A stretch of DNA of 64,000 nucleotides, taken from positions 1-64,000 of the forward strand of contig CAMCRV010000005.1 of assembly GCA_945877365.1 (NCBI GenBank), written 5' to 3'. This document shows positions 20,587 through 51,034 of this stretch, piece by piece. The position numbers were made by a program, and so were the translations under genes. How positions within the stretch are numbered: the stretch's first letter is position 1; each line of letters begins with the position of its first letter. The stretch is from an uncultured Clostridia bacterium (lineage in GTDB: Bacteria; Bacillota; Clostridia; Oscillospirales; Oscillospiraceae). The notes beneath the pieces were generated by a model. It was given only the letters and a program-made list of their open reading frames with translations, did no database searches and was not told the origin of the DNA.

Positions 20587-20615
20587 TTGACAAAAACCAA
20601 AATATGACATATAAT
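20587..20615 (+). promoter_or_regulatory. Promoter of the split glutamate synthase operon
   Basis: TTGACA (20587-20592), 17 bases, TATAAT (20610-20615): exact consensus. Transcription should start near 20622, directly before the attenuator. Confidence 0.88.
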
Positions 20616-20621
20616 CCAGGC

Positions 20622-20690
20622 AATGAATAAAGGCGTTCATGGGAAGGGCAGCTTTGCCCCTCCGGTGAACGCCTTTTTATTTTTAATCCG
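20622..20690 (+). promoter_or_regulatory. Leader attenuator of the glutamate synthase operon
   Basis: Hairpin AUGAAU/GUUCAU with hexaloop AAAGGC (loop 20629-20634), the same loop as in the glnN leader, with A1 and G4 of the ANTAR target pattern. It overlaps the 5' arm of a terminator whose outer stem is AAAGGCGTTCA/TGAACGCCTTT (20629-20675) with an inner GGGC/GCCC hairpin, then a long T-run. Unless antiterminated, most transcripts should end here before the 20707 start codon. Confidence 0.72.
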
Positions 20691-48624: not shown

Positions 48625-49830
48625 ATGCAGATTTCAATCAATGCCAATCGTTGCGAACCGTCCCCCATGCGGAAATTCCATCCTTACGCGGTGGCGGCGG
48701 AAGCGGCGGGCAAGAAAATCTACCACCTGAACATTGGCCAGCCGGATCTTCCCACGCCTCAGGAATACTATGAGGCCATGAGAACCTTTGATAAGAAGAC
48801 CCTGGGCTATGCCGAGTCTCCGGGTATGCCGGTGCTGATTCACGCGGTTCAGAACTACTATAAGCAGCTGGGGGTATCCCTGGATCCCAATGAGATTTTC
48901 ATCACCACCGGCGGCAGCGAGGCACTGCTTCTGACCTGCCTGAGCATTCTGGATCCCTATACCGAGGTGATCATCCCGGAGCCTTACTACCCCAATTACA
49001 CCACTTTCGTTCATGCTGCCGGCGGCGTTATCCGCGCCCTGCCCACCAACCCCTGGGAGGGCTACCGCTATGCCCAGCGGGAGCGGATCGAGAGCCTGAT
49101 CACCAAAAATACCCGTGCCATCCTCATCACCAATCCCGGAAATCCCACTGGCGTTGTCCTCAGCTCCGAGGAAATGCGGATGATCGCCGACATCGCCAAG
49201 GAGCATGACCTGTTCCTGATCTGCGACGAGGTCTATCGGGAGTTCTGCTATGACGATAAGTTCGGCGTGCCCACCATGGCCCACTTCCGGGATATCGACG
49301 AAAATCTGGTGATCATCGACTCTGTGTCCAAGCGGTTTTCCGCCTGCGGCGCCCGGGTGGGCTGCGTGGTCACCCGAAACAAGGAGCTTCAAGCTGCCAT
49401 TCTGAAGTTCTGCCAGTCCCGGCTGTCTGTGGCTACGGTGGATCAGATCGGTGCCGCTGCCCTCTATAATGTGGATCACAGCTTTTTCCGGGCCTCCAAG
49501 GAGGAGTACCGCCGCCGCCGGGATACCGTCATCAGAAAACTCCGTGAGATTCCCGGAGTGGTGGTGGAGGAGCCCATGGGCGCCTTCTATGTGATGGCCA
49601 GCCTGCCGGTGGACGATACGGATAAATTCCAGTACTGGCTGCTGGATCACTTCGATGACTATGGGGATACCGTGATGTTTGCCCCCGGCGCCCCCTTCTA
49701 CGAGACACCCGGTAAGGGCATCAATGAGGTCCGAATTGCCTATGTGCTGAAGCAGGAGGATCTGGAGCGGGCTCTGGATGTTCTGGCCAAGGGCATCGCT
49801 GTGTACCAGCGCCATGTGATGAAAATTTGA
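48625..49830 (+). CDS. Class I/II PLP aminotransferase (aspartate aminotransferase-like)
   Basis: 401 residues, fold-type I. Substrate-binding start NIGQPDLPTPQEYYEA, PLP-contacting ITTGGSEALLLTCL, NPGNPTGVVLSSEEM, the Asp of FLICDEVYREFCYDD and the Schiff-base Lys in DSVSKRFSACGARVG. C-terminal Arg (NEVRIAYVLK) binds the alpha-carboxylate. Probably an aspartate or aromatic aminotransferase; the substrate cannot be fixed. GGAGG precedes the ATG; monocistronic with a terminator at 49842-49871. Confidence 0.93.
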   Translation: MQISINANRCEPSPMRKFHPYAVAAEAAGKKIYHLNIGQPDLPTPQEYYEAMRTFDKKTLGYAESPGMPVLIHAVQNYYKQLGVSLDPNEIFITTGGSEALLLTCLSILDPYTEVIIPEPYYPNYTTFVHAAGGVIRALPTNPWEGYRYAQRERIESLITKNTRAILITNPGNPTGVVLSSEEMRMIADIAKEHDLFLICDEVYREFCYDDKFGVPTMAHFRDIDENLVIIDSVSKRFSACGARVGCVVTRNKELQAAILKFCQSRLSVATVDQIGAAALYNVDHSFFRASKEEYRRRRDTVIRKLREIPGVVVEEPMGAFYVMASLPVDDTDKFQYWLLDHFDDYGDTVMFAPGAPFYETPGKGINEVRIAYVLKQEDLERALDVLAKGIAVYQRHVMKI

Positions 49831-50127: not shown

Positions 50128-50237
50128 AAAAAGGGAGTATTGCAAGTGCCTGATGAAAAATCCCCAAGCAGTGACGCCCGAAACGAGCTTGCGTATACTC
50201 CCAAGGAAAGAGTAACAGATATTGGTGGAAATGTCAA
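50128..50237 (-). ncRNA. Small RNA unit d of a four-unit array
   Basis: Promoter TTGACA (50232-50237), 17 bases, TACTCT (50209-50214). The expected first base, about 50202, is the first base of a rod: GGGAGUAU with AUACUCCC (50195-50202 with 50133-50140), then GCAAG with CUUGC, closing a ~42-nt inner region; five Us follow (50128-50132). Product about 75 nt. Its -35 box begins two bases after the U-run of unit c. Confidence 0.65.
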
Positions 50238-50238
50238 G

Positions 50239-50346
50239 AAAAAGCCCGTCTGGTTCCGCTAAGGCCTTGAACACACAAGGTGACAGCATCCTTAACCCAG
50301 ACAGGCTTTCCACAATTAGTGTAGCTGATTTGCCGGGACTTGTCAA
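50239..50346 (-). ncRNA. Small RNA unit c of a four-unit array
   Basis: Promoter TTGACA (50341-50346), 17 bases, TACACT (50318-50323). RNA starts near 50311 at a rod with AAAGCC/GGCUUU, GUCUGG/CCAGAC, GUUAAGG/CCUUAGC and an apical CCUUG/CAAGG hairpin, then UUUUU (50239-50243). About 73 nt. The rod is the longest of the four. Confidence 0.7.
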
Positions 50347-50387
50347 GGAAGAAGCGGAAGTAAAAAAACATAAGCCCCAGCGAGAAT

Positions 50388-50494
50388 AAAAACAGAAGCA
50401 TCCAGACCGGTGAACGCGGCACACTAATCGTGCCGGATTATGGAAAGGACACTTCTGCTGCGGATATGATAGCAGACGCTGGGAAGGATGTCAA
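50388..50494 (-). ncRNA. Small RNA unit b of a four-unit array
   Basis: Promoter TTGACA (50489-50494), 17 bases, TATCAT (50466-50471). RNA starts near 50459; an 11-bp stem CAGAAGUGUCC/GGAUGCUUCUG (two G-U pairs) encloses a GGCAC/GUGCC hairpin, followed by UUUUU (50388-50392). About 72 nt. The loop contains UCCUUUCC, complementary to a Shine-Dalgarno sequence. Confidence 0.7.
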
Positions 50495-50617
50495 CAAAGA
50501 ACTTTCGACAAATGGAAGCGGAAGACATTGGTATTCCAGTTTTCATTGCAGTTTTTGCTTTTGAGGAAAAAACGGGAGTACCGAAAGATTTCGGCGTCGG
50601 ACATGATACTTCGGGAT

Positions 50618-50727
50618 AAAAAAGAAGCCATGGCGCTTCTTCAGCGGACTGGGAACCAATTTCCCGGGACGCTGATACCTCGCGATGGCTTCATAAACAG
50701 TATACGCGATCCAAAGTCACCTGTCAA
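50618..50727 (-). ncRNA. Small RNA unit a of a four-unit array
   Basis: Promoter TTGACA (50722-50727), 17 bases, TATACT (50699-50704). RNA starts near 50692 at the base of a rod: GAAGCCAU/AUGGCUUC, CGC/GCG, CAGCG/CGCUG and GGGAA/UUCCC, then UUUUUU (50618-50623). About 75 nt. No reading frame with a ribosome binding site is present. Confidence 0.7.
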
Positions 50728-50788: not shown

Positions 50789-50911
50789 GCGAGAGATGGG
50801 ACTCGTTGCCGATTTGCCGAAGGCAAATCGTAAGGAGGCAATTCCGTCCAGCCGGAATTGCCCAACCTGCCCCCGGCAGGTTGGATTGAATTTTTCGAGT
50901 CCCATCGAGCA
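50789..50911. other. tRNA-derived element: 11-bp closing stem around three perfect hairpins
   Basis: GATGGGACTCG and its complement (11 bp) enclose three hairpins in succession: CGATTTGCC/GGCAAATCG, GCAATTCC/GGAATTGC and CAACCTGCC/GGCAGGTTG. The closing sequence equals the T-arm to acceptor part of the tRNA-Leu gene at 50952-51034, and 17 bases of that tRNA end are repeated directly at ~50787. No gene inside. Confidence 0.7.
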
Positions 50912-50951: not shown

Positions 50952-51034
50952 TGGTGCGAGAGATGGGACTCGAACCCACACGGCATAACCACACGCACCT
51001 CAAACGTGCTTGTCTACCATTCCAACACTCTCGC
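50952..51034 (-). tRNA. tRNA-Leu (anticodon GAG)
   Basis: 83 nt including encoded CCA. Acceptor stem GCGAGAG/CTCTCGC, D-arm with TGG-TAG, anticodon stem CACGT/GCGTG with loop TTGAGGT (anticodon GAG), a long variable region as in class II tRNAs, and T-arm GTGGG-TTCGAGT-CCCAT. Reads CUC and CUU. Confidence 0.92.

Follow-up and report, generated by a model that had tools for sequence, protein, structure and literature searches.

The stretch analysed here, called the window, is the whole of positions 1 to 64,000 of contig CAMCRV010000005.1 from an uncultured Clostridia bacterium of the Oscillospiraceae (assembly GCA_945877365.1). On its minus strand, between 50128 and 50727, lies a head-to-tail array of four units, each with a promoter, a rod-like hairpin and a U-run, as a sequence-only reading of the window had described; all four are present with the boxes and spacing that it gave. 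Every unit is made of TTGACA, a spacing of exactly 17 nt, a TANNNT box, 6 nt, a hairpin of 58 to 72 nt, and a U-run. Unit 1 (50618..50727), an RNA gene of the MuF_C type described below, has its −35 box at 50722-50727, its −10 box (TATACT) at 50699-50704, a predicted start near 50692 and a U-run reaching about 50618. The corresponding positions for unit 2 (50388..50494) are 50489-50494, 50466-50471 (TATCAT), ~50459 and ~50386, its outer stem counting 13 bp. Unit 3 (50239..50346) has its boxes at 50341-50346 and 50318-50323 (TACACT), a predicted start near 50311 and a U-run at 50239-50243; for unit 4 (50128..50237) these are 50232-50237, 50209-50214 (TACTCT), ~50202 and a U-run to 50128. Units 3 and 4 abut, with 1 nt between the U-run of the former and the −35 box of the latter. 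The array units are excised almost exactly at the −35 box and the U-run.

Such a cluster is far from expected. The pattern TTGACA-N17-TANNNT has 138 sites in the 2.15-Mb, 61-contig genome, which belongs to Candidatus Faecousia, against 13 for the reversed control pattern, and the chance of four sites on one strand within 519 nt was estimated, by a Poisson calculation, at ~3×10−9 per stretch. When a run of five T 60-88 nt further on was added to the pattern, 11 places were left genome-wide, of which four were the array and two were rods in C12, a prophage contig of the same genome; statements on this genome rest on pattern searches and on individual stretches. An independent scan of the 64 kb (−35 box with 0-1 mismatch, TA...T, rod closed at the start site, U-run at its end) returned six matches, among them the four array units. 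The predicted fold energies of units 1 to 4 are −34.1, −31.2, −34.6 and −28.4 kcal/mol, with z scores of −4.8, −5.8, −4.3 and −4.0, and none of 200 shuffles equalled the native fold. The array units are also the top four matches in the window of R1, a model of the units whose 35-sequence training set includes all four. A search of Rfam 15, which the sequence-only reading had proposed, gave no family at gathering score for the array, its phage copies or the orphan units described below, and in the window only the tRNA matched.

Two relatives of the array units lie on contig C12 (loci L177-L180; 61 kb), which is phage-like, with an integrase by Pfam and, as we read gene size and order, terminase-, portal- and holin-like genes. 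It carries two giant open reading frames (ORFs), one of 4321 aa with SNF2/helicase and Eco57I-like domains, the other of 2977 aa with LPD23, MuF_C and ART-PolyVal domains. In each of them one complete RNA unit, of the same anatomy as in the array, lies antisense. The unit at C12:48503 occupies the linker that joins MuF_C (aa 1124-1238) to ART-PolyVal (1302-1423), and that at C12:8771, located by pattern searches, follows an LPD3-like domain. Within its own genome, unit 1 resembles a single other place, C12:48475-48546: its promoter and 5′ end show 93% DNA identity to the C12:48503 rod, and it matches this resident prophage gene over just ~43 nt of RNA. By BLAST against 136 genomes of the genus, C12 was the sole significant and meaningful match of unit 1.

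These phage copies explain what lies opposite the array. On the plus strand of 50128..50727, coding linkers (K/KK ... V-K/N) are found opposite each rod, in the same register in all four. The peptide opposite unit 1, KKEAMALLQRTGNQFPGTLIPRDGFINSIRDPKSPVK, corresponds to the C12 linker KEKTTKVLKSAGNPIPRGLSSLDGFVNSIRDAKSPVK, and that opposite unit 3, STISVADLPGLVK, resembles an LPD3-type linker, STISIADLLDVVN. On this comparison, the open plus strand of the array is the fossil of the phage coding linker from which the RNAs come. The earlier statement that the stretch has no convincing gene needs correction, since the plus strand is open in one register across every unit. Of toxin domains, MuF_C and LPD3 included, the window retains none. 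The sequence-only reading had said that it would be refuted by a protein conserved over this region in relatives; the opposite strand is indeed coding in the phage homologues, but the window holds linker fragments alone, no toxin domain, and at least one frame break between adjacent units. Units 3 and 4, for instance, sit in different antisense frames.

Beyond this genome, homologous units were found in phages and prophages, antisense inside giant genes for polyvalent proteins, in the linker just after an LPD3 domain or a MuF_C domain, the latter a predicted RNase of the BECR fold. The genomes compared are draft or metagenome assemblies. In polyvalent-gene loci of the genus and of IMG/VR the same unit follows successive domains, five times at 0.6-1.2 kb intervals in the IMG/VR phage L183 and four times in a row in the fecal phage contig L309. 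Altogether 63 distinct units were collected. Their −35 box is TTGACA in 56, the −10 box is extended (TNTG N TATACT), the outer stem has 8-9 pairs and the RNA is 60-105 nt long, promoter and RNA gene taking about 105 bp in all. Nearly all 63 share one open register on the antisense strand, the U-run giving Lys codons at the start and V-K or V-N standing opposite the −35 box at the end. That this register is shared despite unrelated sequences suggests that linker and RNA descend as one module. The preceding domains are, by Pfam, MuF_C, LPD3, PBECR3 or unassigned. Outside the order, at the level of the phylum, 2 of 3 domain matches have a rod at the corresponding position, and Escherichia phage PhiR5_2 (PV340546; L308:3384-3494, minus strand) has an antisense rod at its MuF_C domain, with the hairpin GGGC-AATTGGA-GCCC and a non-consensus promoter. 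Related giant LPD38/LPD5 genes are present in many E. coli prophages, including Stx-converting phages. In another locus, L242, the linker after an LPD3-type domain stands in about three tandem copies (EPAVLNAPSPTGNPLTVTGS...), as if RNA units were stacked in frame.

Nucleotide homologues of the complete array were sought by promoter pattern in 40 relatives, plasmids, phages and viral contigs, and none was found outside the own genome; peptide scans of viral contigs with one sequence gave few relatives. The array units share the promoter and rod anatomy and the antisense register of the family, and their membership is well supported by these sequence features; a MuF_C, LPD3 or PBECR-type domain adjoins the phage relatives and not the array. 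The homologues, their covariation and their conserved promoters bear out the description of the array as a row of small RNA genes from one family that has diversified and kept its architecture. As the literature searched (openly licensed PMC papers) holds no description of such RNAs, the family is apparently undescribed.

The link to the domains was measured on a set chosen by protein, namely Pfam-profile matches to MuF_C and LPD3 in 295 genomes of the order, 31 of them outside the own genome. An antisense TTGAC-N18-TA...T at most 330 nt past the domain end was present in 28 of the 31, where 0.03-0.09 was expected for each and ~1-3 in total; these 31 matches are not fully independent, because a few share a genome. 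For MuF_C the promoter lay mostly 89-104 nt past the domain end. The next 72 nt, which were not selected for structure, folded with a mean z of −4.2, compared to −0.35 (sd 1.2) at control antisense positions. Complete units were recovered by the full scan at 20 of 32 domain matches, and the background of that scan was 17 weak matches, some overlapping, in 776 kb of chromosomal loci. As a control, the ART-PolyVal domain of similar proteins had no antisense promoter after it in 13 cases; in 7 of the 13 one preceded it, where the unit of a MuF_C or LPD3 domain ends.

Constraint on the RNA itself is also visible. Fourteen LPD3-type RNAs form a three-way junction in which 98.3% of cells are paired and 9 of 13 pairs have changed on both sides, a value reached in 0 of 500 shuffles and far above slid controls. 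Across 35 diverse units the outer stem shows 96.8% pairing and 94 double changes, figures that are descriptive alone because this set was picked for structure. The MuF_C-type RNAs share an apical hairpin with the loop AATTGGA or AATTGGT, and the AAUUGGA loop reaches the E. coli phage; in unit 1 the hairpin is GGGA-AATTGGT-TCCC. The closing pair varies by member (C-G, A-T as in unit 1, G-C or T-A), and the residues encoded at the loop change with it (L-Q-L, N-Q-F, V-Q-F, F-Q-L). The loop codons are always CAA and TTR, whereas the same genes use mostly CAG and CTN (P ~3×10−9 if independent).

Orphan units were found elsewhere in the genus when model R1 was run over the 136 genomes, which led to three more kinds of orphan. 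The members of one kind, L291 and L293, occupy one shared intergenic place by a tRNA-Gln in two species of Faecousia. Their RNA body is ~95-97% identical to the phage units L187 and L189, while the promoter spacer is unrelated and TTGACA and TATACT are kept. A cobalamin riboswitch was noted near each, on the opposite strand (L291:1096-1300 and L293:1095-1298). A second kind, L285, stands beside rpsO. At L289, the third, three units follow each other and of the toxin domains only tails such as VLYDILKLQPTQITQK are left; the retention of the units matches that of orphan immunity genes left by effector displacement in loci of the type VI secretion system (T6SS; PMC5361080). Coding constraint alone, considered as a cause of the antisense promoters, was ruled out by the ART-PolyVal control, the orphans outside genes and the replaced spacer.

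The surroundings of the array hint at a mobile origin. Upstream of it lies a tRNA-Leu(gag) gene (50952..51034, minus strand), and a perfect 17-bp direct repeat of the tRNA 3′ end is found at 50789..50805 (minus strand), between the tRNA and the array, 167 bp from the other copy at 50956-50972. This repeat may be an attachment-site-like scar of past integration. On the other side, the aminotransferase gene at 48625-49830 is conserved in the genus together with its upstream gene, and its downstream content differs: no array follows the same gene in relatives. Because the sequence after this gene varies, the absence points to a local insertion or rearrangement and not to a strict empty site. Elsewhere in the window, 20587-20684 (plus strand) carries TTGACA-17-TATAAT followed by a strong hairpin and a U-run (−35.5 kcal/mol); its antisense frame being closed, it is probably an unrelated leader or attenuator.

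We propose that the array is an orphan immunity array, made of phage-borne RNA antitoxin genes directed against MuF_C/PBECR-type or LPD3 domains, a reading that we favour with moderate confidence. A phage unit, in the linker after a domain of a giant injected protein and antisense to it, would combine a strong constitutive promoter with an intrinsic terminator. Lysogens, with their late genes silent, would produce its RNA, which would fold to a rod or a three-way junction. Bound to the domain, the RNA would protect host RNA, whether the protein is injected by a related phage or produced from the prophage. Captured units would stay in the chromosome after loss of the toxin domain, and the resulting array could cover several foreign phage toxins at once. 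Among the roles offered by the sequence-only reading, a protein-sponging RNA comes closest to this, while multicopy regulatory and polymerase-binding RNAs gained no support.

The main competitor, which we consider rather unlikely, is antisense control: the RNA would pair with the polyvalent-protein mRNA and silence it in lysogens, and orphans would silence incoming phage mRNAs in trans, in the manner of RNA-OUT or CopA. Antisense RNAs are typically compact stem-loops with strong promoters, as are the units; each phage copy lies in exact antisense to its gene, and orphans L291 and L293 have kept ~95-97% identity to phage copies. Nevertheless, the units sit deep in 9-13-kb genes, far from ribosome sites, and they follow MuF_C and LPD3 domains alone, not ART domains. 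Structure is preserved while sequence, and hence complementarity, changes, and unit 1 matches the resident prophage gene over no more than the ~43 nt mentioned above. An RNA antitoxin or decoy would fit better, because the RNA would be constitutive in a context of silent late genes, is placed exclusively after the domains, has a domain-specific shape and is retained without the domain.

It is improbable that the array is just what is left of a decaying prophage and has lost all function. Its place by a tRNA-Leu with an att-like repeat, its absence after the aminotransferase gene of relatives and antisense frames that are still partly open are what such a remnant would show, and the open frames mean that arrival may be recent. 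However, four promoters, rods and U-runs are intact although all toxin-domain sequence is gone, and other Faecousia retain single orphans, one of them in the same place in two species. Least probable, and very unlikely in our view, is that the units work as a DNA or transcription device (a swap point for toxin domains or a transcription insulator) whose RNA has no function: one unit per domain, a uniform register, tandem domain shuffling and the 1-nt junction of units 3 and 4 fit a cassette boundary, but a recombination site needs no TTGACA-17-TATACT, extended −10 box and intrinsic terminator, and orphans outside such genes retain promoter and RNA, not coding context. Two further candidates were rejected: integron attC or CRISPR-like repeats, as there are no attC-type ends and no repeated sequence and each unit has a promoter and a U-run, and a 6S RNA, polymerase decoy or CsrA sponge, as no Rfam family matched and the GGA present in every unit is expected by chance about once per 75 nt.

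Several points weigh against the antitoxin proposal. Transcription of the array, toxicity of the domains, binding of RNA to domain and protection are proposed from sequence. Since the phage RNA and the toxin mRNA are complementary, base pairing may be a means of control. A cognate domain was identified for neither unit 2 nor unit 4, the promoter is missing at 3 of the 31 domains, and the folding of two promoter-linked regions does not exceed chance. Jamet et al. (PMC5576092) propose small downstream immunity proteins for MuF toxins instead. The nature of LPD3 is a further difficulty. MuF-C is a PBECR domain, predicted to be a ribonuclease (RNase) or RNA-binding (PMC5512222). For LPD3, AlphaFold gave a predicted local distance difference test (pLDDT) score of 83 with 11 sequences and of 44 with 7. 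The best VIA-align match of the model is weak, a chain of a contact-dependent inhibition (CDI) system (7m5f_C, Z 4.6, root-mean-square deviation 3.4, 85 aligned); matches to the PDB were weak throughout, with no clear BECR family among them, and hhalign found no match between LPD3 and MuF_C. The conserved residues of LPD3 (H, R, E, Y and N) and the weak resemblance of its model to the CDI chain make an RNase plausible.

The proposed system resembles several known ones without coinciding with any. In type III toxin-antitoxin systems (ToxIN, CptIN, TenpIN; AvcID), as here, a small structured RNA lies by a predicted endoribonuclease and is proposed to neutralise the protein. Known type III loci have same-direction tandem repeats upstream of a small ToxN-like toxin, with one promoter, a terminator between and an RNA cut by the toxin (PMC8860590), whereas the family described here has a single RNA with its own promoter and terminator, antisense within the toxin gene after the domain. 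The domains also differ: they are MuF_C, LPD3 and PBECR3 by Pfam, not ToxN, CptN or TenpN, and MuF-C/PBECR are predicted RNases of another fold (PMC5512222). Type I antisense RNAs (Hok/Sok, RalR/RalA) and RNA-OUT/CopA are likewise short stable hairpins with a strong promoter opposite a toxin or replication gene. Type I toxins are however small, hydrophobic and encoded by separate ORFs, and their RNA acts at the translation start, whereas the present RNAs are found between domains, in the linkers of 9-13-kb multidomain genes, their structure covaries, and the window has no toxin ORF. In the orphan immunity arrays of polymorphic toxins and T6SS (Vibrio cholerae, PMC5361080), units are likewise stacked and kept after effector displacement or loss, and they protect against foreign toxins, as is proposed here; those units encode proteins, whereas the present ones encode RNAs and would act against toxins that phages inject. 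Finally, the giant injected proteins with MuF-C/PBECR, LPD3 and ART domains treated in PMC5576092 and PMC5512222 are the products of the genes that host the units.

MuF and polyvalent proteins are presumed to be packaged and then injected, and immunity would be expected to be required by lysogens (PMC5576092). Immunity factors for them are largely unknown, and antisense RNA is not mentioned in the searched text of that paper or of PMC5512222. The present family points to an RNA antidote, not a protein, with a simple rule for finding it. Should antisense control be the mechanism instead, the late genes of phages would still have a new level of regulation, linked to a single class of domains. 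The family is also large, its 63 collected units ranging from Oscillospirales to an E. coli phage, and it is hidden antisense in coding regions, which gene finders and searches for RNA rarely cover. In general terms, and more tentatively than for the array itself, phages with injected multidomain toxins may encode an antisense RNA antidote after each RNase-type domain, and bacteria may harvest the antidote genes into arrays, as an RNA memory of orphan immunity. The findings suggest that bacteria store orphan RNA immunity genes much like the orphan immunity proteins of T6SS.
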